Origin: Bolinopsis microptera
Taxonomy: Eukaryota > Ctenophora > Tentaculata > Lobata > Bolinopsidae
DNA length: 20,630 nt
NCBI RefSeq assembly: GCF_026151205.1
Contig: NW_026971902.1
Coordinates: 1-20,630 of the forward strand
Direction of reading: 5' to 3'
Part shown: positions 3,331-20,630 of the stretch, one piece after another
Numbering within the stretch: the first letter of the stretch is position 1
Layout: each line of letters opens with the position of its first letter
Program-made: the position numbers and the translations under genes
Notes under the pieces: generated by a model
What the model was told of the DNA's origin: nothing
Databases searched by the model: none
The model's input: the letters and a program-made list of their open reading frames with translations, nothing else

Positions 3331-3824
3331 TTACTTTGAATAGCAGATTCATACATTGACTTTGATCGTGTGAAATGTGAACTTATGATTTATGTTAGGG
3401 GTCGTTCACATATTAGTATTATGTAATCACTTTTTGGACAATTTTTAATCCCCCATCCCCCCTCCGTAATCAGTTTTTGGCTTTACACATAGCTATTGTC
3501 AATTGTGTCAAAATTACGATAGCGTAATTATATGGAAATTAATAGCGTCATATAACAGAAGCTGGTGGATGACCGACCATGTTTTATGCATACGTCATTC
3601 TAATTATGTACGCAAACATGCATGATCCAGACGATCGCATGCAACATGTATGTGGTATGATGTAGCTCGGATCGCGTCGATTCACGTGCGTTATCGCGCG
3701 ATCGAGCGCTACATGGAAATCATAATATTGTCTTGGCGCGTTACAAAAAGCACACCAGACAGAGCCTAAAATCAAGCGTTTTATGCAATTACGCAGACTA
3801 ATTTCTTGTACATAGATTCTACTA
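3331..3824. other. Intergenic stretch with a CpG-dense patch
   Basis: No gene is supported. Around 3660-3720 the sequence has an unusual number of CG dinucleotides for its AT-rich surroundings (GGATCGCGTCGATTCACGTG, then TTATCGCGCGATCGAGCGC). It ends in CTA (3822-3824), the left flank of foldback element FB-1. Confidence 0.45.
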
Positions 3825-5130
3825 TAGTAAGGGGAAAAGTGGCATTCCGTTGGATTCGAATGTTCACAAGGATTTCTCAACGGAATATGGTAGTTAGGAC
3901 CCCTACGAACATAATTAGACTTGTTGCCAATTTTGTATCTCAACGGAAACACCACTTTTACCACTTTTTACCACCTTTGTACCACCTTTCTGGTTTGCCA
4001 AATATCTTTAGTTGTGAACATCATAGAAGGCTGAAAATTAACCTAGAATGTTTATCTTATCAAGGAGTAAAACTTTTGTATCAAAAATTTTTACATTGGA
4101 CAATCAGCTAATTGGATAATTACCAATTAGTTAATCACCAAAAAAAGTGAAAATTTTTTATTGGCTCAAAATGATTGAAATCGTTTGAAACACGGAGAAA
4201 TGTAGTTTTTAGAAAAACTTCAAAAATTTTTCACTTAAAATTTTTTTTCGAGACTTCAAAAAAAAGTTTGAAAATTTGAAAATATTTTTTTCCGCCAGAA
4301 GTGATCGAATTACATGAAACGTGGATAAAAATGCTTTGCAGAAAAAATTCGAAGATTTTTAGATTGGGGAATACTAAAACTCTAAAATCATCAATATTTG
4401 AAGTTGGAGTTCAGTAAATCTCGACATATTTTAGTAATTAGGAATAGCTTAGCGGAAAGGGCTGGACCTGAAAAAGGTTAACCACACAATATTAGAGTTT
4501 CATAACTAATTACAATACAGCTTTATCAAATTCCACATAAAGAAACATCACAAAAGGACCATTTAAGATCGAACCGATTTTACCTGCTGTACTATCATTT
4601 TATTGATTTCAATGATCAAAACCTCTGTCAATCTTGCCAATCTATACCGGGTATCTGAATGTACCGGACCTCTTATTTACCTCTATAATTAGACCCAGTT
4701 GTGCAAGAAATGCGATTTCTCACAGGGGTTTCTTTAAACTGTGCACTTTTTGTCACTCTCGCAACTCGCAAGAGGCCTGGTATTATAAGGGGGGGGGGGG
4801 GGGGGGGGGGGGGGGGGAATAACCCCATATGTCATTGCCAGGGTCGGGATAGAGCTGGAGATAGCATTGAAAAGTTGCTAGAAATAGCTAGATTTAGAGT
4901 AAACTGGTGGTAGCTGGGTGGTGCTAGCATGGATGTAGCAGAACGTAGCTACACGGGGTTTCATTGGAGTTGGTTATTTTAATGGCCAAAGAGTGCCGGA
5001 ACTAAAGTTACTTAAGATTGCAGTTTAGGGGCAGTGTAAACCACGGTGTAGTCAGGGACACAGAGCTACAGTGCAGGAGTACTGTAAAATAACAGTGCAA
5101 GTGATACAGTCTGCAACAGTAAAACTCCGA
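3825..5130 (+). repeat. FB-1 left arm
   Basis: Matches 5714-7119 in inverse and 13799-15181 directly. It includes an AT-rich segment with A- and T-tracts at about 4135-4350 and the segment AGGCCTGGTATTATAAGG before the G tract. It ends with CAGTAAAACTCCGA. Relative to the other arms it lacks the GGTCGATTTAAGG segment near the tip and the TATAGGAAGCGAG...TACCTCG segment after the G tract. Confidence 0.9.
4789..4817 (+). repeat. 29-bp G homopolymer in FB-1 left arm
   Basis: An uninterrupted run of 29 G. The right arm has a matching run of 29 C at 6125-6153. Both FB-2 arms have only seven. Confidence 0.95.
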
Positions 5131-5713
5131 AGAAGGAGATAAGATTGTGGCTGCAGAGGAGGAGAGTAGCTGGAACCTGATTGTGTTTGTGTTGAAAGAA
5201 GAGGAGGAAGAAGAGTTTCCTGCTTTGGTAACTGTATTTTTGGAAGAGGTGGGGTGAGAACTTATTTTCAAGCGACATAACAAGGGTGGGCTGGAAGCAA
5301 CCAGATACAGCTATCCGACCTATTAAGATCACCGTCCTGAGCTTAACAGCATTTCATCAGAATCTTATGAAAACAGAGAGACTGACCCACCCTTTTTAGA
5401 TCCAACGAAACCCTTTATATAAATCGACTTTTCTGCATGAATTACTTCATGGTATCTTCTTATCAAGGCTATAGACCTTGCCGTACCGGATTTATTGATC
5501 AAAGTGAGTCTCTTTAGCCCTCTTCTTGTTTAGAGCTTTAGGTAAGTGATCAAACTCTTCGCTACTCGCTCTTCACTGGATCTATCAGGACAGATTCACA
5601 TCTTTTTAGGTCTCAACCAGCCTTAGTTTTCCTGTTTTCATCATGTAGTACGTTCTGCTACCTCCATTTTAGCACCACCCAGCTTCCATCAGTTCACTCT
5701 AAGTCTAGCTTCG
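5131..5713 (-). repeat. FB-1 central loop
   Basis: This 583-bp loop is the reverse complement of the FB-2 loop (15182-15759), so the two elements lie in opposite orientation. It starts with GAAGAAGGAGATAAGATTG and contains a TATATAA box on the minus strand (5415-5421). It contains serine-codon-rich low-complexity open frames, which I read as non-coding because they come from purine/pyrimidine-skewed repeats. Confidence 0.85.
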
Positions 5714-7119
5714 TCGGCGTTTTACTGTTGCAGACTGTATCACTTGCACTGTTCTATTGCAGTACTCCTGCACTGTAGCTCTGTGTCCCTGACTACACCG
5801 TGGTTTACACTGCCCCTAAACTGCAATCTTAAGTAACTTTAGTTCCGGCACTCTTTGGCCATTAAAATAACCAACTCCAATGAAACCCCGTGTAGCTACG
5901 TTCTGCTACATCCATGCTAGCACCACCCAGCTACCACCAGTTTACTCTAAATCTAGCTATTTCTAGCAACTTTTCAATGCTATCTCCAGCTCTATCCCGA
6001 CCCTGGCAATGACATATGGGGGTTATTCGAGGTATATGGCATAGCAAACGAAGCGGCATGCGCATTCACAATACAAAAAAGCCACAATGGATGATGGAAG
6101 GTATATTTACACTCGCTTCCTATACCCCCCCCCCCCCCCCCCCCCCCCCCCCCTATAATACCAGGCCTCTTGCGAGTTGCGAGAGTGATAAAAAGTGCAC
6201 AGTTTAAAGAAACCCCTGTGAGAAATCGCATTTCTTGCACAACTGGGTCTAATTATAGAGGTAAATAAGAGGTCCGGTACATTCAGATACCCGGTATAGA
6301 TTGGCAAGATTGACAGAGGTTTTGATCATTGAAATCAATAAAATGATAGTACAGCAGGTAAAATCGGTTCGATCTTAAATGGTCCTTTTGTGCTGTTTCT
6401 TTATGTGGAATTTGATAAAGCTGTATTGTAATTAGTTACGAAACTCTAATATTGTGTGGTTAACCTTTTTCAGGTCCAGCCCTTTCCGCTAAGCTATTCC
6501 TAATTACTAAAATATGTCGAGATTTACTGAACTCCAACTTCAAATATTGATGATTTTAGTATTCCTCAATCTAAAAATCTTCGAAATTTTTCTGCAAGGC
6601 ATTTTTATCCACGTTTCATGCAATTCGATCACTTTTGGCGGAAAAAAATATTTTCAAATTTTCAAACTTTTTTTTTGAAGTCTCGAAAAAAAATTTTAAG
6701 TGAAAAATTTTTGAAGTTTTTCTAAAAACTACATTTCTCCGTGTTTCAAACGATTTCAATCATTTTGAGCCAATAAAAAATTTTCACTTTTTTTGGTGAT
6801 TAACTAATTGGTAATTATCCAATTAACTGATTGTCCAATGTAAAAATTTTTGATACAAAAGTTTTACTCCTTGATAAGATAAACATTCTAGGTTAATTTT
6901 CAGCCTTCTACGACGTTCACAACTAAAGATATTTGGCAAACCAGAAAAGTGGTACAAAGGTGGTAAAAAGTGGTAAAAGTGGTGTTTCTGTTGAGATACA
7001 AAATTGGCAACAAGTCTAATTATGTTCGTAGGGGTCCTAACTACCATATTCCGTTGAGAAATCCTTGTGAACATTCAAATCCAACGGAACCCTTAAATCG
7101 ACCACTTTTCCCCTTACTA
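5714..7119 (-). repeat. FB-1 right arm
   Basis: The full-length inverse of the left arm, retaining the segments the left arm has lost. It carries the uninterrupted target site (around 6165-6178, CCAGGCCTCTTGCG) into which the Academ-like transposon is inserted in FB-2. Confidence 0.9.
6125..6153 (+). repeat. 29-bp C homopolymer in FB-1 right arm
   Basis: A run of 29 C, exactly matching the length of the G run in the opposite arm. Confidence 0.95.
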
Positions 7120-7842
7120 CTAGAAGACGTAAGATTTCCTTTAAACTTGACAGATAGCTTTAAGACGGATAATCTGATAGTGATACAGCAGGGTGTCATA
7201 ATTATTGGCGTGTTTGGAATTTTATGTGTATTTTATGATGAAATCAATATTTTTCAATGAGTCATAACTTTACTTCTGAATGCCGAAATTACGAAATTCA
7301 AAAACTGGTCTGTAGACAATCGTTTGAACTTTTTCTGAATTTCAGAATTTTGTGTTGATGTACCTCACTTCGAACACAAGAAAATATATTCATGGTGTGG
7401 TGCGACTAACGGAAGATTATCTCCAAATTCCTCAGATGCGATTTTCAGACAGTAAGATGAGTACAAGGCTGATAATCTGTGCAAGTTTGGACGAATTTCT
7501 ACGAGCCAAATTTGAGATATTACTTGAAACACAAGAAAATGTCTCTAAATCAAATTTTAAGTGATATCTCGACTTAATATAATTGACTCGAAGAAATGAA
7601 GAGCGGAAACTCCAACTCGCCCTAAATTGAGGAGACACTGGACAGTGGACACAAACTGACTGAGCCAGGAGGTCACGGGACATGGTATCTGAAATAATCG
7701 TATTTTGGATCTTAAAATCGAGTTTTGAAGCTGTAGTGGAACGATAACATATTTGTCAAACTTAAAAAAGGGACACTAGGTTCAATACAAATCGCAGCAC
7801 TATAAAATGGAAATGTACACTTTTAAATACTTATAACTTAAC
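7120..7842. other. Region without recognised gene
   Basis: The open frames here (for example 7352-7564 plus and 7432-7683 minus) show no recognised domain, no splice context and no codon pattern that I trust. I see no structured repeat. Confidence 0.4.
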
Positions 7843-7844
7843 TA

Positions 7845-8151
7845 CAGTGAAACTTTGGCCGGTTAGATCCGGACAGAGAATAGAGATTATTTTTTTGAAA
7901 ATAAGTTAGTCTGGATATTAAAGGAATAAGGAATTGGGATGCTCATTGCTCAATATCATATATGAATATGATGCTTAATATAATGATTAATTTCACTATC
8001 ACGCCTGACGGCTGACGTAGAAGTCACACATCCCGGCTATGTTCTAATTATACATAATAAACGGTGGAAACTGAAATCTCGGTTTCGACTGCATTTCGAC
8101 GGGACTATTAACAAATCTTTAACGTTTGGTCCGGAATCCAGAGTTTCACTG
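7845..8151. mobile_element. pogo/Tigger-like MITE
   Basis: The left end TA|CAGTGAAACTTTGG...ATCCGGAC and the right end, read inversely, TA|CAGTGAAACTCTGGATTCCGGAC, form terminal inverted repeats of about 24 bp. The left copy carries an 8-bp interruption. TA dinucleotides flank both sides (7843-7844 and 8152-8153). The CAGTGRAAC...TCCGGAC ends and TA duplication are typical of the pogo/Tigger branch of Tc1-mariner. The 307-bp body has no transposase. It lies downstream of the last CBS-like exon. Confidence 0.65.
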
Positions 8152-8477
8152 TAGACTATTTTAACTTGACGCAAAAACCCAATCATATAACTTTGCACAA
8201 AGAAACCTAAAAAACAACTCATTAAAAAGCAAAGCATGCTAAAACTAAAACAATAGACACTGGTGGGAGATAAAACATATTATGTGACACGTGACAGTGA
8301 TATTGGGGTTTGATTGGTCAATGATGGCAGCTGACTGGTAAATATATGGCACGTGTCAGAACAAATATGTTTCGGCTCCCAACCAGTATCCCTATCTATA
8401 ATAATCATGCGGCATATTCTTTGAATGAAAATATACCTAAATAAAATGCTCGTTAGACTTTTAATTAAAAATGTTCA

Positions 8478-8523
8478 AAACCTCTATGTTAAAATGTCCG
8501 AAACCTCTATGTTAAAATGTCCA
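8478..8523. repeat. 23-bp tandem duplication
   Basis: AACCTCTATGTTAAAATGTCC occurs at about 8479 and again at 8502. It lies in the presumed 3' untranslated region of the distal CBS-like terminal exon. Confidence 0.8.
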
Positions 8524-8574
8524 CCGTTTCGAACTCTAAAAATAGATTCATCCCAAAACACGGTCCCTAGGGAA

Positions 8575-8711
8575 CTAGTGGAAACCATTGGTAAGGGGTA
8601 CTTTAGGTGGTGTTTCCTCTGAGCCTTCGTTCATAAGGTAGTGTACAATATCACTTCTGCTCAGTATACCAAATACGATCTGCTTCTCTGTGTGGACACC
8701 GTCATCGTCAT
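8575..8711 (-). CDS. CBS-like gene, distal alternative terminal exon (B)
   Basis: Read on the minus strand after the acceptor TTGTATTCAG, the exon completes a TAT codon with the T left by exon 12578-12662. It runs DDDGVHTEKQIVFGILSRSD and then IVHYLMNEG, followed by about 16 residues to a TAG at 8575-8577. This is the last beta-strand and helix of a CBS motif. The shape K/R-Q-x-V-F-G-[IV]-[LV]-[ST]-x-x-D-[IL]-[LV] is that of the C-terminal end of cystathionine beta-synthase, whose tandem CBS (Bateman) domain regulates the pyridoxal-phosphate enzyme that condenses serine and homocysteine, and binds S-adenosylmethionine in vertebrates. A minus-strand ATTAAA at 8459-8464 could be a poly(A) signal. 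It may be an alternative to exon 10186-10358 or belong to a tandem copy. Confidence 0.72.
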
Positions 8712-8743
8712 CTGAATACAATATTATATATCATATTATTATT

Positions 8744-8841
8744 GTTTTCTTGGGTATGTTTCTATTGATCCCGTCTGATGCGACAAGGAAAAGGCTCCTT
8801 GTCGCATCAAACGGGATCAACAGAAATTTACCCAAGAAAAC
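8744..8841. repeat. Long near-perfect hairpin upstream of exon B
   Basis: Arms of 46 bp (8744-8789 and 8796-8841) with only four mismatches and a 6-nt loop. The core is GATGCGACAAGGA facing TCCTTGTCGCATC, and the outer ends are GTTTTCTTGGGTA / TACCCAAGAAAAC. In the minus-strand transcript it lies about 30 nt upstream of the acceptor of the distal CBS-like exon. It could be a palindromic MITE, a small-RNA precursor or a splicing-control structure, and the sequence alone does not decide. Confidence 0.85.
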
Positions 8842-9597
8842 ATTTCAACTATGCGACTCATAAATAATATTCCAATCCGGATTTTACACATTATTATTAC
8901 TATTATATTATAATGCAAATGGTTAACAATAATTAGTGTTCATTTTACTAGAGTATCATCTATTCCATCTCAATCAGTACTTATTTCAAGCATTTTATTT
9001 TCCCGTCGAACATTCCATCTATCATTATGACAAACCGCAATATTAGGTAAAGTTATTTCTGATTTCAAGCAATATTGTGTAACATTTACACGTCTAATTA
9101 TATCAGGGTATCAAGTTGATTGAGTTTAGTATCCAAATTCCATCCAAATATTAACTTAACGGGTGTAACGGGTTTTGGTAGCACCTTTAAAACACGTTCA
9201 ATGCTTTCACACAGATTTATATGTTCACAAGGGTAGGAATAATTGTAACGTATAAATTGCCTCTTAAACACAGTACGCAGTGCTAGTATACTGGGCTACT
9301 GGCATTAGTTGCCGTATCGTGAATTGAAATGCCCCAAAATGTCGATATAGATCTTTTTCATGAATTCCTTAAATTTTATTAGAATTTCCAACTGTACTGG
9401 CCGTTCACCAGAATAATCATTTATTAATTTGTCAGTTATTACTCGAACTAACGTTTTTGATATTTACCATAATATTTTGAAATGAACTAAAAACCACACC
9501 AAACTAAAACCACACCAAGCTTATATCTGGAGATGAGAAATTTACCATATTATTATTCATACTGCATACTTTATTAGGTACAAATAAAGTGAATTTA
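8842..9597. other. Intron/intergenic AT-rich sequence
   Basis: No exon or known element is recognised. A simple ATT-rich tract lies at about 8890-8912. Confidence 0.4.
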
Positions 9598-9599
9598 TT

Positions 9600-9743
9600 G
9601 CAAATGTAGTGCAAATGTAGTGCAAATGTAGTGCAAATATAGTGCAAATATAGTGCAAATATAGTGCAAATATAGTGCAAATATAGTGCAAATATAGTGC
9701 AAATATAGTGCAAATATAGTGCAAATATAGTGCAAATATAGTG
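9600..9743. repeat. 11-bp minisatellite (13 units)
   Basis: CAAATGTAGTG at 9601, 9612 and 9623, then CAAATATAGTG ten times from 9634 to 9743, with a strict 11-bp period. Because 11 is not a multiple of 3, all frames stay open and generate artefactual LHYICTIFA-type peptides on the minus strand. Confidence 0.95.
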
Positions 9744-10110
9744 TATTTAGTGCAGTCAAACATCACCCAATTCGAAAAATGTATGAAAAGATTTGAGGGT
9801 TAAATGAAAATATTGAGATAAAATTGAAAATTATGTGCTTTTTGGTGAACTCCGAGAGTCTCAGTAAAATAATAAAAGGATGATGCTTTGCTGTTATGAT
9901 TGAAATTAAAATGCATTGAAAAAAAGTTTAGAATGGCAAAAAAAGGTCATTTGATTGTGCATATATAACATGTTCCGTATCATCACATTTTCGCCATAAT
10001 TCATTTAAGTGCTGTAAAAATCAGACTCAGAATATATAGATCACTGCAAACATACACTAATATATAACACACGCACACATAAATCAGCAAACCAGCACAT
10101 TTTCAGTTTT

Positions 10111-10150
10111 TTAAAGTGAAACATCAGCTTTTAAAGTGAAACATCAGCTT
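10111..10150. repeat. Perfect 20-bp tandem duplication
   Basis: TTAAAGTGAAACATCAGCTT occurs twice back to back, with a third partial AAGTGAAACAT at about 10160. It lies just 3' of the stop codon of the proximal CBS-like terminal exon on the minus strand. Confidence 0.92.
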
Positions 10151-10185
10151 TCACAAAAAAAGTGAAACATACTCAGATCACGGCA

Positions 10186-10358
10186 TCACGACTCATTATC
10201 ACATGACTTTAAACTTTCGACATCTGATCCGACGGTTTTATCATCTGATACCCCGTTGGTATAAAGGTGAGGTCCAGCTATGATGTAAGCTAACAGGTGG
10301 GAGGCGGTGACAGTACCAATGTACATTTCACGTGGTGCAGGTTTGCCGTCATCCTCGT
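10186..10358 (-). CDS. CBS-like gene, proximal alternative terminal exon (A)
   Basis: After the acceptor AATTTTCAG the minus strand reads, in the phase set by exon 12578-12662, Y then EDDGKPAPREMYIGTVTASH and LLAYIIAGP. A polar tail of about 27 residues follows to TGA (10186-10188). It aligns position by position with the distal exon (DDDGVHTEKQIVFGILSRSD / IVHYLM): same splice phase, same DDG entry, same strand-helix layout, but clearly diverged residues. GTVTASHLLAYI is a typical CBS-motif end. The two exons therefore look like duplicated, interchangeable last exons giving different C-terminal halves of the final CBS motif. Alternatively the distal exon belongs to a decayed or tandem paralogue. 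The intron from the shared exon would be 2,219 nt. Confidence 0.7.
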
Positions 10359-10425
10359 CTGAAAATTACTACAAATGAACTCTTACATCTTACTATATAT
10401 AAAGCGAGACGATATGTATATTAAT

Positions 10426-10442
10426 AATATATATATATATAT
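10426..10442. repeat. (AT)n microsatellite
   Basis: Uninterrupted alternating AT within the putative intron. Confidence 0.9.
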
Positions 10443-10559
10443 GTTTATCCGTACCATTTTACTGACGCCACGGCATCAACTTTAACGCGACTTTCCCTGA
10501 TGCGGGACAGGGATATATGGAAGGGGTTATCTGGCGTAGATCGGACTTAGTTCCGACAT

Positions 10560-10655
10560 ATTAGTAGTAGTAGTAGTAGTTACATACTATAAAATTACAT
10601 ACTATTAACTTACATACTATTAACTTAGATACTAATAACTTACATACTGTAAACT
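10560..10655. repeat. (AGT)n and 15-17-bp degenerate tandem repeat
   Basis: About six TAG/AGT triplets are followed by five variants of TTACATACTATTAAC (at about 10580, 10594, 10609, 10625 and 10638), each with small changes. Confidence 0.8.
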
Positions 10656-11227
10656 TTTATTTCTCTAAAGTGATCGAAATAATAAATAAAAATGTAAATT
10701 ATGGAAGTTTCGCTAAGAAAGTCTAATAGAACACTTCGTGAAATTTGATCAGAATAAAAATACAATTTTGAAGAATTTAATTATGACTCATCTTAGAGAC
10801 CATCATGAGTCTATAAACTTACTACAAGCCAAACTCCTTATATTCTACAATATTGTTGTTTATCCATTTTAACTTGCTCCTAATACAAGTAGTCATGGTT
10901 TGTACGCATTGTCTGGGCGGCATGTCTGCAGCGAATTACGTCAAACAAATATATTTAACCAGCGCTTCTATGAAAATGTAATTCACTTCATTTCACGGGA
11001 CAAATTAATGCCACATGTTTTTCTGAGAAATTGAGTTACCGAACTTATCAGTGTACATTTATGACTTAGCTGATTCTGGATAAAATAACGCTTTCAAGTC
11101 CGATCTCTGAATAATTAAGACAGGATTAATATTGAATTTGTCTGACCGCTAGAGGGAGTTAGTATAGTATTTCATACCCAATGCTCGGTGAGGATGACGT
11201 ATTAAAAACCGGTTGGGTTATAAATAC

Positions 11228-11254
11228 ACCTGTGTAAGAGCAGGTTACACAGGT
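11228..11254. repeat. Short perfect hairpin
   Basis: ACCTGTGTAA (11228-11237) faces TTACACAGGT (11245-11254) across a 7-nt loop. It could be an isolated palindrome. There is no T-tract that would suggest a terminator, and none is expected here. Confidence 0.7.
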
Positions 11255-11459
11255 AACTAGAGTCTTTAGTCTCTAGGGGAAATAATAATCCTACCCTCTC
11301 TGCTCTACAATTGTTTCCTTTCATGGTAAACCTTCTAAGTTTTAATAGTTCTTTTTCTTAAGCTTACATCTTTTATACCAGAAGATATAAATGAGGTAAA
11401 TAAATTACTCTGATGTTGTCTTTTCTTATTATTAAATAGTCAAAGATATCTTTTGAGAC

Positions 11460-11711
11460 AAAAATGTAGGGGTACAAGTCCGGATGGTAGCAAAGAACCA
11501 AAAATGTAGGGGTACATTTTCCGGATGGTAGCAAAGAACCAAAAATGTAGGGGTACATTTTTCGGATGGTAGCAAAGAACCAAAAATGTAGGGGTACATT
11601 TTCCGGATGGTAGCAAAGAACCAAAAATGTAGGGGTACATTTTTCGGATGGTAGCAAAGAACCAAAAATGTAGGGGTACATTTTCCGGATGGTAGCAAAG
11701 AACCAAAAATG
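11460..11711. repeat. 41-bp minisatellite with 82-bp higher-order period
   Basis: AAAATGTAGGGGTAC recurs at 11461, 11501, 11542, 11583, 11624 and 11665, with a truncated copy at 11706. The unit also contains CGGATGGTAGCAAAGAACC. From the second copy on, units alternate between ATTTTCCGG and ATTTTTCGG, so the real amplification unit is a dimer of 82 bp. All three minus-strand frames are open, giving a 41-residue peptide cycle. This follows from a stop-free unit not divisible by three and is not evidence of coding. Confidence 0.95.
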
Positions 11712-12577
11712 GTCCATCTTATTTTTAAAACACTCGATCAGACAGTAACCACGTAAATGTAGATAGAATAGTGATATAGGGTGATATAGGAACTAGTCAT
11801 GAATTACACTTGAAGATTTGTGAAATGTTTGAAATTGTAGCTTCCACATTTCTTAGACCAGTTAAATTCGTTTACACACATAACAGCTAGTTTATAGAAA
11901 ATGAAATTAACATCCTAACTCTAACTGGATTCCTCTCTTTTGTTGAAGCTCACTAATATTAATAATTTGACAAAAGTCTGAATACGTCTGTACCATATTA
12001 TAAGCTACTAGCTACAAAGTGTTGCATATTTGTGAATACGTCTGTACCATATTATAAGCTACTAGCTACTAGGTGTTGCATATTTGTGAGGTGGTAAGAA
12101 ACACGTGGACTCTACTTTATTTGAACCACGAACTAACAAACCTGAGAATGTTCACATTTAAGTTGGTTTGGTTATAATAAACCAGGATTACCATGTTTAA
12201 TTATATTGCACAAAGAAAGTCCACTGAACTAAGCTAACGTTTTCTAACTGGCAAGCTTTCAGCAGGGTTATTGTTGACCATGCAATAATTACTATTAGTA
12301 TAATAAATAAATAAATTCTAACATTTATTACACGCTTCGACATTAAAATATACCCGACAAAGATGTACATTTAAGTCATTCAAGCGAGACTTAGTGTTGA
12401 AATACCAAGATTATGGACTTTTTTATCAGTTCAGATTTTATGAACAAATATTTGTATGAAGTTACCAAAATTATTATGATTATAACTATGTATAATTAAT
12501 ATGATCATAATTAATGTAATAGCATAATTACTATTAGTATGATTGGTGTAATTTATAGTATTATAAGTATTACTCAC
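11712..12577. other. Putative intron sequence
   Basis: AT-rich with no exon recognised. It contains the 54-bp tandem duplication at 11980-12087 and AT-rich ATTACTATTAGTAT words at about 12288 and 12527. Confidence 0.45.
11980..12087. repeat. 54-bp tandem duplication
   Basis: GAATACGTCTGTACCATATT starts at 11980 and again at 12034, and the copies differ at only a few bases (GCTACAAAGTG versus GCTACTAGGTG). The near-identity indicates a recent event. Confidence 0.93.
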
Positions 12578-12662
12578 AGTACTGCCACCCTTTGGTAACG
12601 ATGACGAAGTGATCGTGGTCCAACATCTTAGAAACTACAGCCAGAGATGTATCCACAGAAAC
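12578..12662 (-). CDS. CBS-like gene, shared internal exon
   Basis: An 85-nt exon on the minus strand between acceptor TTCTCGCAG and donor ACT|GTGAGTA. It reads VSVDTSLAVVSKMLDHDHFV then IVTKGWQY, and leaves one T for the next exon. This is the start of the last CBS motif: a strand, the helix S-L-x-x-V-S-K-M-L and the DHF-V-I-V strand. It resembles the L-x-x-DHF-A-L-V-V-x-x-x-Q-Y segment near the C-terminus of animal cystathionine beta-synthase. Joined to either terminal exon (10186-10358 or 8575-8711) it gives an uninterrupted frame through a complete CBS motif with QYY[ED]DDG at the junction. The catalytic pyridoxal-phosphate domain and earlier exons must lie to the right, beyond FB-2 and the window. 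Assignment to cystathionine beta-synthase rather than another CBS-motif protein is likely but rests on a short segment. Confidence 0.75.
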
Positions 12663-12668
12663 CTGCGA

Positions 12669-12738
12669 GAATTACGTCATGTTACGTCATACTACGCCAT
12701 TTAACGTCATACTACACCATGTTACGTCATGATACGTA
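12669..12738. repeat. 10-bp minisatellite of ACGTCAT units
   Basis: Seven consecutive decamers: ATTACGTCAT, GTTACGTCAT, ACTACGCCAT, TTAACGTCAT, ACTACACCAT, GTTACGTCAT, GATACGTACG. It lies immediately 5' of the shared CBS-like exon on the minus strand, overlapping where its branch point would be. ACGTCA resembles a CREB/ATF half-site, but position and repetition make chance amplification more likely. Confidence 0.9.
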
Positions 12739-13136
12739 CGCTTCTATTCTATAGTTAAAAGACTTAAAGTTGGCGGTTAATATCGACTACCGAGCAACAT
12801 CTAGTTACTTCTGACAACGTGACGATGTAAACTGTAATTTCAAGTGGTATTATCAGACAACACCCAATCTTTCCGTTAGATAGTAATAACTTGGGTTTCC
12901 ATTTCCGCCCTGACTCAATAATCCGAAAACCGTTCAGTACGAAGTCCCATTTATGTAGATTTATAATTTATATGGATTTAACCGTTGCAGATTGAGAAAT
13001 GAGAATATAAAAACACAAATCATCAACATGCTGTGTGTCGAGTGAGCCCCAATGATATTACACATGATATTCCCGATCAATAGAACGGTCCTGTTCGACC
13101 TGTTAACACACTCAGCAGTGCACCGTGTTACTTTTA
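12739..13136. other. Putative intron sequence, nothing recognised
   Basis: No exon of the CBS-like gene or other feature could be supported on either strand. Confidence 0.4.
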
Positions 13137-13430: not shown

Positions 13431-13798
13431 CGTCTCTGACATTCAGAGTATTCATAGTTAGGGCTGGGATTATTTAAAACAAAATTCGTACTAATATTGT
13501 CACTGGTATTATTGTCACGATATTATTCTTGCAGTTTAAGAGAAAAACAAGCCAATCCTTTTAGAACGCAAGCGTCTTCTTTGTAACTCATAATGTGAAT
13601 TGTGAGCTGTGGATCTAATTTCGGTAAAGTATCTAATCCAGTCCTTATCGCTGGCTAGAATTGATCACGTTATCAACCGACTATACCTTGTGACTACGAC
13701 ACACTGTAACCACGTGCCCGACAAACTAGTGCTGTACCATACCAACACAATATTCAATGTCTTGCGTCCTGTAAAATTGGCATAGCAAAGCATGATAA
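13431..13798. other. Flank before FB-2, nothing recognised
   Basis: No gene or repeat supported. It ends at TAA (13796-13798), the presumed left copy of the FB-2 target duplication, whose partner lies outside the window. Confidence 0.4.
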
Positions 13799-15181
13799 TA
13801 GTAAGGGGAAAAGTGGTCGATTTAAGGGTTCCGTTGGATTTGAATGTTCACAAGGATTTCTTAACGGAATATGGTAGTTAGGACCCCTACGAACATAATT
13901 AGACTTGTTGCCAATTTTGTATCTCAACAGAAACACCACTTTTACCACTTTTTACCACCTTTGTACCACTTTTCTGGTTTGCCAAATATCTTTAGTTGTG
14001 AACGTCGTAGAAGGCTGAAAATTAACCTAGAATGTTTATCTTATCAAGGAGTAAAACTTTTGTATCAAAAATTGTTACATTGGACAATCACCTAATTGGA
14101 TAATTACCAATTAGTTAATCACCAAAAAAAGTGAAAATTTTTTATTGGCTCAAAATGATTGAAATCGTTTGAAACACGGAGAAATGTAGTTTTTAGAAAA
14201 ACTTCAAAAATTTTTCACTCAAAATTTTTTTTCGAGACTTCAAAAAAAAGTTTGAAAATTTGAAAATATTTTTTTCCGCCAAAAGTGATCGAATTGCATG
14301 AAACGTGGATAAAAATGCCTTGCAGAAAAATTTCGGAGATTTTTAGATTGAGGAATACTAAAATCATCAATATTTGAAGTTGGAGTTCAGTAAATCTCGA
14401 CATATTTTAGTAATTAGGAATAGCTTAGCGGAAAGGACTGGACCTGAAAAAGGTTAACCACACAATATTAGAGTTTCATAACTAATTACAATACAGCTTT
14501 ATCAAATTCCACATAAAGAAACAGCACAAAAGGACCATTTAAGATCGAACCGATTTTACCTGCTGTACTATCATTTTATTGATTTCAATGATCAAAACCT
14601 CTGTCAATCTTGCCAATCTATACCGGGTATCTGAATGTACCGGACCTCTTATTTACCTCTATAATTAGACCCAGTTGTGCAAGAAATGCGATTTCTCACA
14701 GGGGTTTCTTTAAACTGTGCACTTTTTATCACTCTCGCAACTCGCAAGAGGCCTGGTATTATAGGGGGGGTATAGGAAGCGAGTGTAAATATACCTTCCA
14801 TCATCCATTGTGGCTTTTTTGTATTGTGAATGCGCATGCCGCTTCGTTTGCTATGCCATATACCTCGAATAACCCCCATATGTCATTGCCAGGGTCGGGA
14901 TAGAGCTGGAGATAGCATTGAAAAGTTGCTAGAAATAGCTAGATTTAGAGTAAACTGGTGGTAGCTGGGTGGTGCTAGCATGGATGTAGCAGAACGTAGC
15001 TACACGGGGTTTCATTGGAGTTGGTTATTTTAATGGCCAAAGAGTGCCGGAACTAAAGTTACTTAAGATTGCAGTTTAGGGGCAGTGTAAACCACGGTGT
15101 AGTCAGGGACACAGAGCTACAGTGCAGGAGTACTGCAAAAGAACAGTGCAAGTGATACAGTCTGCAACAGTAAAACTCCGA
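13799..15181 (+). repeat. FB-2 left arm
   Basis: Near-identical to FB-1 arms, with the tip TAGTAAGGGGAAAAGTGGTC. It retains the segment after the G tract (TATAGGAAGCGAGTG...) that FB-1's left arm lost. The G tract here is only 7 bp (14764-14770). Confidence 0.9.
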
Positions 15182-15759
15182 CGAAGCTAGACTTAGAGTG
15201 AACTGATGGAAGCTGGGTGGTGCTAAAATGGAGGTAGCAGAACGTACTACATGATGAAAACAGGAAAACTAAGGCTGGTTGAGACCTAAAAAGATGTGAA
15301 TCTGTCCTGATAGATCCAGTGAAGAGCGAGTAGCGAAGAGTTTGATCACTAACCTAAAGCTCTAAAGAAGAAGAGGGCTAAAGAGACTCACTTTGATCAA
15401 TAAATCCGGTACGGCAAGGTCTGTAGCCTTGATAAGAAGATACCATGAAGTAATTCATGCAGAAAAGTCGATTTATATAAAGGGTTTCGTTGGATCTAAA
15501 AAGGGTGGGTCAGTCTCTCTGTTTTCATAAGATTCTGATGAAATGCTGTTAAGCTCAGGACGGTGATCTTAATAGGTCGGATAGCTGTATCTGGTTGCTT
15601 CCAGCCCAACCTTGTCGCTTGAAAATAAGTTCTCACCCCACCTCTTCCAAAAATACAGTTACCAGAGCAGGAAACTCTTCTTCCTCCTCTTCTTTCAACA
15701 CAAACACAATCAGGTTCCAGCTACTCTCCTCCTCTGCAGCCACAATCTTATCTCCTTCT
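15182..15759 (+). repeat. FB-2 central loop
   Basis: This 578-bp loop has two internal relics. 15185-15250 is a diverged direct repeat of arm segment 14936-15003 (TAGAGTRAACTGRTGG, AGCTGGGTGGTGCTA). 15462-15500 (AGAAAAGTCGATTTATATAA then AGGGTTTCGTTGGATC) resembles the element's own tip at 13808-13842 with TATAA inserted. The resulting TATATAA (15474-15480) could act as a promoter element, but no reading frame follows it convincingly. Confidence 0.8.
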
Positions 15760-16194
15760 TCGGAGTTTTACTGTTGCAGACTGTATCACTTGCACTGTTC
15801 TTTTGCAGTACTCCTGCACTGTAGCTCTGTGTCCCTGACTACACCGTGGTTTACACTGCCCCTAAACTGCAATCTTAAGTAACTTTAGTTCCGGCACTCT
15901 TTGGCCATTAAAATAACCAACTCCAATGAAACCCCGTGTAGCTACGTTCTGCTACATCCATGCTAGCACCACCCAGCTACCACCAGTTTACTCTAAATCT
16001 AGCTATTTCTAGCAACTTTTCAATGCTATCTCCAGCTCTATCCCGACCCTGGCAATGACATATGGGGGTTATTCGAGGTATATGGCATAGCAAACGAAGC
16101 GGCATGCGCATTCACAATACAAAAAAGCCACAATGGATGATGGAAGGTATATTTACACTCGCTTCCTATACCCCCCCTATAATACCAGGCCTCT
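15760..16194 (-). repeat. FB-2 right arm, inner part
   Basis: Reverse complement of about 14745-15181. It includes a 7-bp C tract (16171-16177) equal in length to the left arm's G tract, and stops at GGCCTCT where the Academ-like element begins. Confidence 0.9.
16192..16194. other. Left target-site duplication TCT of the Academ-like element
   Basis: The left flank GGCC-TCT and right flank TCT-TGCGAG rebuild GGCCTCTTGCGAG, which is exactly the uninterrupted site in FB-1's right arm. The partner copy is at 20104-20106. Confidence 0.85.
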
Positions 16195-16651
16195 TAGTTA
16201 GGGCAAGAATTGCTGTTTAAGGGTCAATCTGTGAACAAATTCGTAACAAAGGTTTGTCTACAGGAATGTGTTGTCCATAGTCCCAGGAACCACCAAAAAA
16301 AACCGTCCAGCTGAAACTTTTGGGCAAAAATTTTTATAGTCATTTTTCTCCAGGAACCCATACGCCCCACCCCTAATATTGGTTATTCGGCTCCCGAAGG
16401 TCTTGAGATCTCCATAGGGGGTGCAAAATGACCGCAATGGCCACATTATGGCAGGCGAATGATAGTTTCAGAACGATTGGGGCTTTATTTTTCGAAATAA
16501 ATGGAATTTTTCGAAAGTTTTCGAAATTTTATTGAAATTTCGAAAAAAATACACCAAATTATTTTTAACGCTTATTTCAAATCTTACTCGGGAAATAACT
16601 TCAATTAACAAATATCAAGGTTAACTAACAAACAACAGATTATTGACCAAC
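16195..16651 (+). repeat. Academ-like left terminal inverted repeat (copy A)
   Basis: Inverse match of 19657-20103, extending through the coding-derived words AACAAACAACAG and ATTGACCAA. Minus-strand AATAAA lies within it. Confidence 0.9.
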
Positions 16652-16926
16652 TGAAAACTTTTGGGCAAAAATTTTTATAGTCATTTTTCTCCAGGAACCC
16701 ATACGCCCCACCCCTAATATTGGTTATTCGGCTCCCGAAGGTCTTGAGATCTGCATAGGGGGTGCAAAATGACCGCAATGGCCACATTATGGCAGGCGAA
16801 TGATAGTTTCAGAACGATTGGAGCTTTATTTTTCGAAATAAATGGAATTTTTCGAAATTTTTCTCAATTTTATTGAAATTTCGAAAAAAAATACACCAAA
16901 TTATTTTTAACGCTTATTTCAAATCT
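16651..16926 (+). repeat. Internal second copy (B) of subterminal repeat
   Basis: CTGAAAACTTTTGGGC... to CGCTTATTTCAAATCT repeats 16311-16584 directly. It is more diverged from the right terminus than copy A is: GATCTGCATAGG versus GATCTCCATAGG, and GATTGGAGC versus GATTGGGGC. It ends where the left-specific interior begins. A minus-strand AATAAA at 16825-16830 could be the gene's poly(A) signal. Confidence 0.88.
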
Positions 16927-17018
16927 ATTTAAAAACTCATCTACAAATAACAAATACAGTTAATCTAAAATGTGTATTCTCAGTAAATACCATGACAATT
17001 ATTAATACACAGTTAATA

Positions 17019-19699
17019 TTAATCAAAATTCGCTTGTTCTTCAGGTTCATCATGTCTAATGTTTGTGCAGTTCATACCATGGCATCGTCCACAAGCTGGC
17101 AAACAATTGAAGCCATATTTCCTACATGAACATCTGAAAGTCAAAAAGGCCTGTTCCACATCGACAGAACAGTTACAACATATAAGGTTCAAAATAGACT
17201 CTGGAGCAATTACAGCTTTTGTTGCAACTGGTTCGTAAGTGCCACCAGGAGCCAGTTTCCAGCCGTAGTCAAGGGGATTCAGACTGTCAGCGTTAAGCAT
17301 GACCCAGTTATGGTACTGTAAGTAAGCTCTAAGGATGTGCTCCGTTGCTGAAGCTATTGTTGGAGGTAGCCTATTCGGATTGAGACTCTTTTTCGCTACC
17401 ATCCTATTGTATGCTAGGAATCTCAAAGCAGAAAGAGTCTTTTTCTTGTCACCATAAATGTACTGCAAGAAACAGAGGCCTGCCTCAATAATCTTTTCTT
17501 TTGATTCTCTCACCGAAAGTAATGTTGCCAACTGACCTTGCTCATCAAAGGTGAGAGCTTTCTTTAGCACTTTAACCTTGCTAAAACCAAACAGTCCACT
17601 GACGCTATCAAAACCTGAAATACTATGAATTAGAAGAAGTATCTCCTTTTCTTTATGATCTAGATGACTTGATATTTCTTTGATTGAATATGTACCCTTC
17701 TCCATTGTTAGATAAATATCATTGTGATGGTCACTGTTGAAATGATGTACTAATAGACTTGAACTATATCGGTATCCTCAGCCTTCAATTCAACATCGCC
17801 AAGGAATGACATTTCCAATGTTTTCTTTGCAATTAAAGTATCAGCATCGTTACAAGCTCTGATCACTTCAATACCATTTACAGTAAAAATGCTTGAGATA
17901 AGGTCGATCAGTTCTTTTTTGTTATTGTTGTTGCTCAGAAATGTTGTTTTGGTGACAGTACAAAAGGTGGATTTCTTTACAGCAATATTAGCACAGAACG
18001 CTTTTACTCTCCTCTTGTGCTCGTGATCTTTAGTAGAAGGCTCATATCCATCAAAAATCACAGTAACTTCCCGATTTTTAGGGATAAGCTTCAAGTACTC
18101 CATTGCTACCTCACCATAATTGTCACACCCTTTAAATGAGCTTAGTTGGTGAATTAGCCAACCTCCATCAATGACTAGTGGGATCGTGAAGCTGCAAGAT
18201 TTAAGTGTAGATTGGTTTATACCAAGAGCAGCCTTATTAGATTTCCTCATCATCTGATATTGATCAAATAAGCTCATCGGCACCACAGTTAACTCGTATC
18301 ATGTTAGGCATTCCTCTATTGAAGTATCTCTATCAGCAACCAAGACTAGACGGTTAAAACACTTCAACGGATCGACTGCAACGCTTTTATTATTCACTTT
18401 AACCTGCTTTCTTAGTTGTGTCATGTTCTTTGCTTTACCTTTGATACTTATCTTATCGATGAATGTCAACCCATCTAGCTCACGTTGAAGGACAGCCCCA
18501 ACGGCCAAACATTCCTCGGGATTCACCTCATCGTTCCCAGCCTGTGATATAAGACCAGTCGAAAAAGATATTAACTTAGTCTTATCTTCGGATTCTGTAA
18601 AGTCGACAGTGACTTTAAACCAAGTTAATAATTTTCCAAATACATCACAGTTTTTCTTGATTGATGACTTGGTAAGATCTGAGTGGATGGCAGCTTTAGT
18701 TGGTACTCCTCGCTTCGATGAATTAGCTAATGAATCTCCAAAAGACTGATTTATTAAAGCCATCTGATTCAGGGTGGCCACCCATAACTTGTGAGCGGAC
18801 TCACGATTACGCATCCGTCCACTTGTTAATCCACTACTAGATTTAGCTGCCCTCATAAGACTCTGCTCTATGGAGAGGTCAGTCCACACCCCGGCCCACT
18901 CGTGGTCGTTGTAACAAACCGTGTGAAGCCCAGTTACTTTAAAGGTCTTCAAGAGCGCCCCATACTTGACTTTAAAAATAGCATCCTGCTCCAAATACAG
19001 TCTTAAAGCTTTTGCATACTGTCCCCTCCCAGCTGCTGCGAAGTAGGGCAGCATCAAAGCTACTGCTGATAAATGCATATTGTAGTCGTGCAACCTCTCT
19101 GCTCTTATGAAGTCCTTTACTAGTGTTATCATGTTGTGGTAAGTAACCCATAGAGCTGCTGTTCTACTGTTGGAAAACAGGTTCTTTAGAAGCAGGGTTA
19201 TTTTCTCTGATAGATCCTGAATAGATTTAGTCTTAAAGTTAACACCTAGATTTTCGTTCACACATTTGTTGATGTAACCTTCCAAGTCTACTAGTTCATC
19301 GTCGTAAACTTCTTCCTCTATAATGAAACAACAAAGAGCGGCGTCGATCAGAAAGTGGGCTCTCAACGCTTTATAGTAAGATCCTCCATCCGATATATGC
19401 GTGACGTCTCCAGGATACACGAGTTTGATGAGCTCCTCTAAACCCGAGTCTGCCATTTTATAGCCTATGCAGCCAAGAAAACTCGTGAGAGTGTGGAAGC
19501 CCCCAACCCTGACCACAATAGGCATCCCAGTTTCCAGTACTATTCGGGTGGCCTTAATCCACAATGGCAAATCGAATGTGATTATCATCGGCTCACTGTA
19601 GGATAACTTAAGACATTCAACCAGAGTAGTATGTACCGTCGAATAGCTGTCTTGGGGTTGGTCAATAATCTGTTGTTTGTTAGTTAACCTTGATATTTG
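17019..19699 (-). pseudogene. Academ-type transposase/XPG nuclease gene, broken
   Basis: A minus-strand gene remnant of roughly 890 codons in three blocks. Block 1 (19699-18299) is open from inside the right terminal repeat. It contains DSYSTVHTTLVECL, TFDLPLW, GGFHTLTSFLG, DFIRAER, MLPYFAAAGRGQYAKA and TDLSIEQSLMR; the Asp of TFD and Glu of SIEQ are plausible members of the DDE triad. A TGA (18299-18301) interrupts it between ECLT and YELTVVPMSLFD, in the same frame. Block 2 (to 17750) is XPG/FEN1-like: VIDGG, VIFDGYEP...KRR, NDADTLI and EDTD. A one-base-type frameshift near 17752-17758 leads to LLVHHFNSDHHNDIYLT. Block 3 (to 17019) has HSISGFDSVSGLFG and a C-terminal CxC-x6-C-x3-C-x2-C-x4-C cluster preceded by CCxC. 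The usual GCD of the ISGCD-type motif is GFD here. The N-terminus is missing. Only two lesions suggest recent decay. Confidence 0.8.
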
Positions 19700-20103
19700 T
19701 TAATTGAAGTTATTTCCCGAGTAAGATTTGAAATAAGCGTTAAAAATAATTTGGTGTATTTTTTTCGAAATTTCAATAAAATTTCGAAAACTTTCGAAAA
19801 ATTCCATTTATTTCGAAAAATAAAGCCCCAATCGTTCTGAAACTATCATTCGCCTGCCATAATGTGGCCATTGCGGTCATTTTGCACCCCCTATGGAGAT
19901 CTCAAGACCTTCGGGAGCCGAATAACCAATATTAGGGGTGGGGCGTATGGCTTCCTGGAGAAAAATGACTATAAAAATTTTTGCCCAAAAGTTTCAGCTG
20001 GACGGTTTTTTTTGGTGGTTCCTGGGACTATGGACAACACATTCCTGTAGACAAACCTTTGTTACGAATTTGTTCACAGAAAAATCAACTCTTGCCCTAA
20101 CTA
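19657..20103 (-). repeat. Academ-like right terminal inverted repeat
   Basis: Inverse of 16195-16651. Its inner 43 bp overlap the open frame of the transposase remnant (19657-19699), an unusual arrangement that implies the 5' part of the gene was deleted. Confidence 0.9.
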
Positions 20104-20106
20104 TCT
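20104..20106. other. Right target-site duplication TCT
   Basis: Pairs with 16192-16194. The foldback arm resumes directly after it (TGCGAGTTGCGAGAGTG). Confidence 0.85.
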
Positions 20107-20630
20107 TGCGAGTTGCGAGAGTGATAAAAAGTGCACAGTTTAAAGAAACCCCTGTGAGAAATCGCATTTCTTGCACAACTGGGTCTAATTATAGAGGTAA
20201 ATAAGAGGTCCGGTACATTCAGATACCCGGTATAGATTGGCAAGATTGACAGAGGTTTTGATCATTGAAATCAATAAAATGATAGTACAGCAGGTAAAAT
20301 CGGTTCGATCTTAAATGGTCCTTTTGTGCTGTTTCTTTATGTGGAATTTGATAAAGCTGTATTGTAATTAGTTATGAAACTCTAATATTGTGTGGTTAAC
20401 CTTTTTCAGGTCCAGTCCTTTCCGCTAAGCTATTCCTAATTACTAAAATATGTCGAGATTTACTGAACTCCAACTTCAAATATTGATGATTTTAGTATTC
20501 CCCAATCTAAAAATCTTCGAAGTTTTTCTGCAAAGCATTTTTATCCACGTTTCATGCAATTCGATCATTTTTGGCGGAAAAAAATATTTTCAAATTTTCA
20601 AACTTTTTTTATAAGTCTCGAAAAAAAATT
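20107..20630 (-). repeat. FB-2 right arm, outer part (cut by window end)
   Basis: Continuation of the right arm, inverse of about 14222-14745, ending in the AT-rich part of the arm at the window edge. It shares arm-specific variants with FB-1's left arm. Confidence 0.9.

Follow-up and report, generated by a model that had tools for sequence, protein, structure and literature searches.

Contig NW_026971902.1 of the ctenophore Bolinopsis microptera, analysed here over its whole length of 20,630 bases (contig C143 in our numbering, referred to below as the window), carries on its minus strand the 3′ end of a gene for a heme-type cystathionine beta-synthase (CBS), in which one penultimate coding exon is followed by two terminal exons, A and B, either of which can be joined to it in the same phase so as to complete the second CBS motif (CBS2) of the protein. 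The arrangement is real and is unlikely to be due to chance. From the structure of the gene and the homology of its two ends we consider it probable that A and B act as alternative last exons of one animal CBS gene, giving two regulatory forms of the enzyme.

The upstream exons of this gene lie outside the window, on contig C10 (18.3 Mb), which carries a second copy of the locus, and the gene was modelled there. The model starts at exon 2, the exon with the start codon not having been located, and comprises 13 constitutive exons (2 to 14) followed by A or B, with GT-AG boundaries and agreeing phases at all internal junctions. The proteins encoded from exon 2 onwards have 534 residues with ending A and 522 with ending B. 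They score 630.3 and 630.8 bits, respectively, against the NCBIfam cystathionine beta-synthase family TIGR01137 (cut-off 510.25), and the best full-length match of form B in the PDB is human CBS, with E 2.5e-183 over chain residues 44-545. The segments PSDCKW and PSPHVH align with human PSRCTW and ESPHHH, which hold Cys52 and His65, taken here to be the heme ligands, and GGSVKDRI is also present, the lysine of GGSVKDR being presumably the one that binds pyridoxal phosphate. On these similarities the gene is an animal heme-type CBS with a catalytic core and a pair of CBS motifs, as the original prediction, made from the window alone, had proposed for its family. Exon 2, the heme exon, ends inside a short tandem repeat (at about 630-820 of C10:14072001-14082000), with two further stretches just downstream that encode the same 10-11 residues, and the exon 2 donor is thus the least certain junction of the model.

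Searches of the whole genome (264.65 Mb in 232 contigs) with the joined proteins placed the shared exon, A and B only on C10 and in the window, accounting for all four matches to the query with ending B and for four of the five to the query with ending A. The fifth match, at C2:3528260 (35% identity, E 0.0056), was rejected as a CBS copy; judged by eye, it adjoins a long open frame resembling an unrelated membrane-protein gene. A genome-wide search for the CBS family gave eight matches, seven of them at places on C10 that all belong to this gene and one at C2:2500287, where a 392-residue frame looked by eye like another enzyme of the same fold and not CBS. Neither a second CBS gene nor a duplicated shared exon was found in the 20 kb around the locus on C10, searched with tblastn, or in genome-wide exon searches, so that the expectation of a single shared exon holds, with one copy per allele.

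The splice signals at the end of the gene are compatible with both joins. The shared exon lies between CAG and GTGAGT, and its 3′ end, ...CAGTACT, closes with the first base of a split tyrosine codon (phase 1). Exon A is preceded by TTTTCAG and exon B by GTATTCAG. Joining the shared exon to A or to B restores the same tyrosine codon, and both frames then stay open until their stop; the joined protein reads VSVDTSLAVVSKMLDHDHFVIVTKGWQYY-EDDGKPAPREMYIGTVTASHLLAYII... with ending A and ...QYY-DDDGVHTEKQIVFGILSRSDIVHYL... with ending B. One donor, two in-phase acceptors and a stop in each last exon are thus found in the window and again on C10 (Table 1). The coordinates, signals and phase that the original prediction had given were all recovered on the minus strand; the two motif sequences that it quoted are likewise both present, although it quoted that of B first while listing the exon of A first. 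Four GT dinucleotides in the right phase occur inside exon A, as would be required if part of A were to serve as a cassette exon spliced on to B.

Table 1. Features of the two-ending CBS locus in the window and on contig C10
Feature	Position	Strand	Remarks
Penultimate coding exon, common to both endings (exon 14 in the C10 model)	12578..12662	-	Encodes the first half of CBS2
Terminal exon A (proximal), stop included	10186..10358	-	Completes CBS2 with GTVTASH and a 30-residue tail
Terminal exon B (distal), stop included	8575..8711	-	Completes CBS2 with GILSRSD and a shorter tail
Candidate poly(A) signals for ending A	9570..9599	-	Starts of AATAAA at 9599, 587 nt after stop A, and at 9575, 611 nt after it
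Candidate poly(A) signal for ending B	8460..8465	-	ATTAAA, 110 nt after stop B
Foldback element just upstream of exon B	8732..8853		Tight hairpin 8743-8842, ending 31 nt before the exon
Shared exon on C10	C10:14084906-14084990		0 of 85 bases differ from the window
Exon A on C10	C10:14087208-14087380		0 of 173 bases differ from the window
Exon B on C10	C10:14088855-14088991		1 of 137 bases differs from the window

Because the evidence for the two ends was uneven, every candidate terminal exon was ranked. On C10, the 7 kb on the 3′ side of the shared exon hold 39 open reading frames that follow an AG, are at least 30 codons long and have a compatible phase. When these were scored against human CBS residues 519-551, A came first (52) and B second (46), the third candidate reaching 28; among the 273 such frames on both strands of the 20 kb, A and B again ranked first and second, with 28 the next best score. 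None of 2000 shuffles matched the real score of A, that of B, or the score of A against B. A six-frame tblastn search with human residues 515-551 and composition adjustment switched off gave E 0.001 for A and 0.006 for B (next 0.59), and the short joined exons found their PDB matches at modest values, E 0.00071 for A and 0.0044 for B. The similarity of A and B to each other is weak (E 0.15 and 0.089), yet each is still the best match of the other in the 20 kb after itself. The base composition of the two exons is also that of coding sequence in this gene: GC content is 46% in A and 45% in B, compared with 47% in the 13 constitutive exons, 31-32% in the two flanking introns and 36% in the other introns. 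Among windows of equal length drawn from the two flanking introns, the GC content of the exon was reached in 0 of 3345 for A and 12 of 3417 for B. Reading frames, gene model and candidate ranking thus agree that the two exons are matched in phase and complete the same last CBS motif, which had been the core of the original prediction.

The two copies of the locus tell the same story. Window positions 7351-12955 match C10 with 99.4% identity over 5.6 kb, with large presence/absence differences around this segment, and the window copy is probably the other allele of the C10 locus, the alternative being a recent duplicate. Across window 8400-12950 the alignment of the copies has 19 mismatches in 4549 aligned bases and a single indel of 2 bases. 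The sole difference within the three exons is a synonymous third position in B (the codon having been derived by hand), and the reading frames, stops and acceptors of A and B are intact on both copies. An artefact of assembly can be ruled out, because the same arrangement is present on the 18.3 Mb contig and on that of the window.

What the swap would do to the enzyme can be judged from the alignment with human CBS. The shared exon aligns from human residue 490, and the split tyrosine falls, without a gap, opposite human Tyr518 in the oligomerisation loop (516-525), which here has the human length. The motif that follows the tyrosine reads GTVTASH in A and GILSRSD in B, compared with GVVTAID in the human enzyme, where the last residue is Asp538; this aspartate therefore lies opposite aspartate in B and opposite histidine in A. 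In the human protein the substitution D538A is described as abolishing binding of S-adenosylmethionine (SAM) and activation by it (PMC10995199), and as giving the lowest SAM response of six mutants together with lower stability (PMC4276868). The contrast between the two ends suggests a form that binds a ligand (B) and one that does not (A).

We propose that exon 14, which carries the first half of CBS2, would either be spliced to exon A, the closer of the two, the transcript being cleaved and polyadenylated ahead of B, or be spliced past A to exon B. Both mRNAs would encode the same catalytic core, the same first CBS motif (CBS1) and the same first half of CBS2, and would diverge from there on, in the last strand, the helix and the tail. 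Form B would retain the aspartate that grips the ribose in the second site of the Bateman module, whereas form A, with histidine at this position, should not accommodate an adenosyl ligand as this site normally does. The choice of splice site and poly(A) site would then set whether the cell makes a ligand-responsive enzyme or one that is ligand-blind, or differently liganded. This last step, a sensor switch under the control of splicing in which one core is given a working adenosyl-ligand site (B) or none (A), and in which a hairpin at the B acceptor may tune the choice, is a distinctly more tentative proposal than the existence of two regulatory forms, and we put it forward as one possibility.

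Some elements that might govern such a choice can be seen between and around the two exons. The interval between A and B holds five AATAAA hexamers, the two nearest to A being the candidate signals listed for that ending, and an ATTAAA follows B. As poly(A) signals these hexamers are a weak indication, since the region is AT-rich and their occurrence by chance is expected. Directly upstream of exon B is a foldback element with arms of 58 nt that are 84% complementary; the RNA of 8690-8870 has a predicted folding energy of -86.3 kcal/mol (z -13.5), with 0 of 200 shuffles reaching it. The element belongs to a family that is dispersed in the genome, with at least 94 match rows among the 40 of 296 candidates that were scored, many of which represent the two arms of one place. 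Near-full-length copies elsewhere are about 77-86% identical, and many of half length (about 55 nt) are 91-98% identical. The repeat is present upstream of B on both copies of the locus, where it may weaken B, make the use of B conditional, or do nothing.

A number of observations weigh against two functional endings that differ in ligand sensing. The last exons contribute little to the recognition of the gene, since the protein cut before them already scores 625.8 bits against TIGR01137, leaving only 4.5 (A) and 5.0 (B) bits to the endings. In the first tblastn search, with full-length human CBS and default statistics, exon A appeared only at E 0.066, and neither exon B nor the shared exon was listed at E up to 100; a genome-wide search for the Pfam CBS domain (12 matches) found the CBS1 exon and missed the shared exon, A and B. 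Scored separately against Pfam, the two half-domains reach 12.8 and 19.2, below the cut-off of 24. The 19 differences between the two copies are too few to test selection on each exon. As to ligand binding, the residue at the position of Phe443 is valine (in NVDQLPVVD), so that Val-Asp-Gln stands in place of Phe443-Asp444-Gln445 of CBS1. The human F443A substitution abolishes SAM binding (PMC10995199), and in Drosophila CBS, where the aspartate is conserved, the corresponding Val411 'most probably precludes' the binding of SAM all the same (PMC4133348). With valine here as in Drosophila, even form B may not sense SAM; SAM is a doubtful ligand for this form, which may bind another adenosyl compound, or none. 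Finally, human D538A also reduces thermal stability and basal activity (PMC10995199, PMC4276868), and form A could therefore simply be a poorer enzyme.

The main rival explanation is that one of the endings is unused or decaying. The likeliest candidate is B, its acceptor now lying behind an inserted foldback repeat and A being the effective ending; in the reverse case, A would be the copy that has fallen out of use, its key aspartate gone, and the histidine opposite Asp538 would fit this. The acceptor of B scores 3.06 and ranks 24th among the 190 AG sites in the region around the exons, compared with 8.34 and first rank for that of A, and it is below the average of the gene, with only one of the 13 constitutive acceptors scoring lower. 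A hairpin derived from a repeat stands 31 nt from this acceptor, the repeat family is dispersed, with copies about 77-86% identical at near full length and 91-98% at half length, and no AATAAA follows exon B in the stretch scanned, down to window position 7600. Set against these points, neither copy has a broken frame, stop or acceptor in either exon, and one synonymous base in B is the only exon difference; the score of B (46) is well clear of the 28 reached by the best chance candidate; and a weak acceptor is not peculiar to B in this gene, where leave-one-out scoring gives constitutive acceptors of 0.2, below that of B, and of 3.2 and 3.4, close above it. We regard the loss of one ending, most probably B, as an unlikely explanation, though one to be taken seriously. 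Still less probable, in our view, is that both endings are used but with consequences for assembly, stability or location and not for ligand sensing. Such a reading draws on the position of the junction, within the oligomerisation loop of the human enzyme, and on tails that are unequal in length and unlike in sequence; the loop here is of human length and has the tyrosine. In human CBS, an alternative exon at the same point produces dimers from tetramers and higher oligomers and roughly halves the cellular half-life while the response to SAM is kept (PMC13396399), and the valine in place of Phe443 makes SAM sensing doubtful for both forms. The tyrosine and the residues before it are identical in both forms, however, so that the main anchor named in that paper is unchanged, and the change from aspartate to histidine is located at the ligand site.

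There remains the idea that A or B is the leftover of a second, tandem CBS gene that has lost its other exons, or a part of a neighbouring gene. Duplication followed by loss can leave two diverged copies of one end side by side, but several results make such an origin very improbable here. A tblastn search of the 20 kb with exon 14 and the protein of the gene returned exon 14 itself at E 8.6e-17 and next a match at 0.14 over six residues; no relic of another CBS exon was found in the interval separating A from B, at E up to 5, nor did a human CBS query give anything convincing there. Both exons fit the same phase-1 donor, and the only genome match to either that lies away from the two copies of the locus is the 35%-identical one on C2 already mentioned. 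Probable use of A and B as alternative last exons of a single gene is thus the explanation that we carry forward.

Alternative exons that exchange part of the regulatory region of a metabolic enzyme, and so change its control, are familiar from PKM1 and PKM2, and alternative 3′ ends do the same in the KGA and GAC forms of glutaminase. These are a working analogy only for how the present gene would operate, since the enzymes are unrelated and the PKM exons are internal and mutually exclusive. The closest parallel is mammalian CBS itself, a member of the same family in which a variable splice event occurs at the same tyrosine of the CBS2 oligomerisation loop. In human CBS isoform 2, Tyr518 is replaced by 15 residues from an alternative exon 15 (PMC13396399), and the serine that replaces Tyr518 in the longer mammalian loop would, we infer, fit the same phase-1 split. 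There, however, a cassette exon lengthens the loop, and the last strand, the helix and Asp538 stay. In the present gene each terminal exon would bring its own last strand, helix and tail, and only that of B includes the aspartate. Drosophila CBS resembles the present enzyme in being of the heme type, with a Bateman module, valine at the Phe443 position and the equivalent of Asp538 kept as in form B (PMC4133348). The likeness does not extend to the oligomerisation loop, which insects essentially lack (PMC13396399) and which is present here, and no alternative ending is described for the fly enzyme in the accessible text of PMC4133348, where the word 'isoform' is absent.

The claim in the original prediction that no such arrangement is known in the family must accordingly be narrowed. 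Splicing alternatives inside the same motif are known in mammals (PMC13396399), but we found no report, in the literature searched, of alternative last exons that exchange the complete terminal strand and helix; the titles and abstract openings covered mentioned no alternative last exons in CBS, most subscription papers being outside that scope. Within that literature, two last exons used alternatively would be a variation on the splicing known in CBS.

Why might such a variant matter? CBS sets the flow of homocysteine to cysteine, glutathione and hydrogen sulfide. The human enzyme is switched on by SAM, and that of the fly is constitutively active and does not bind SAM (PMC4133348 for the fly). 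One catalytic core with two sensor ends would, if both are used, provide a natural comparison of regulated and unregulated CBS within a single gene. The junction at Tyr518, which is spliced alternatively in mammals, would then look like a recurrent point for changing the regulation of CBS.

The surroundings of the locus differ between the two copies. A stretch of about 3.3 kb, window 3824-7117, is absent from C10, where its flanks share six bases (positions 18892-18897 of the joined 20 kb), the pattern expected of a target-site duplication; with long runs of G and C toward the inner parts of both ends (4789-4817 and 6125-6153), it resembles a mobile element that is polymorphic between the copies. 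Window 13787-20630 has no match at E 1e-10 in the compared C10 segment (14072001-14092000), which means that either a long additional segment precedes the shared exon in the window copy or the contig departs from the locus at this point. Within this part, window 17019-19699 contains three long open frames on the minus strand, of which two, encoding 466 and 182 residues, are in the same frame with a single stop between them and the third, of 252 residues, overlaps in another frame; they have no Pfam match above cut-off and probably represent a gene of a mobile element. Tandem arrays occupy 832-1865 (184-base units), 9581-9743 (11-base units) and 11459-11711 (41-base units). The 11- and 41-base arrays sit in the introns around exon A, and the latter is open in three minus-strand frames.

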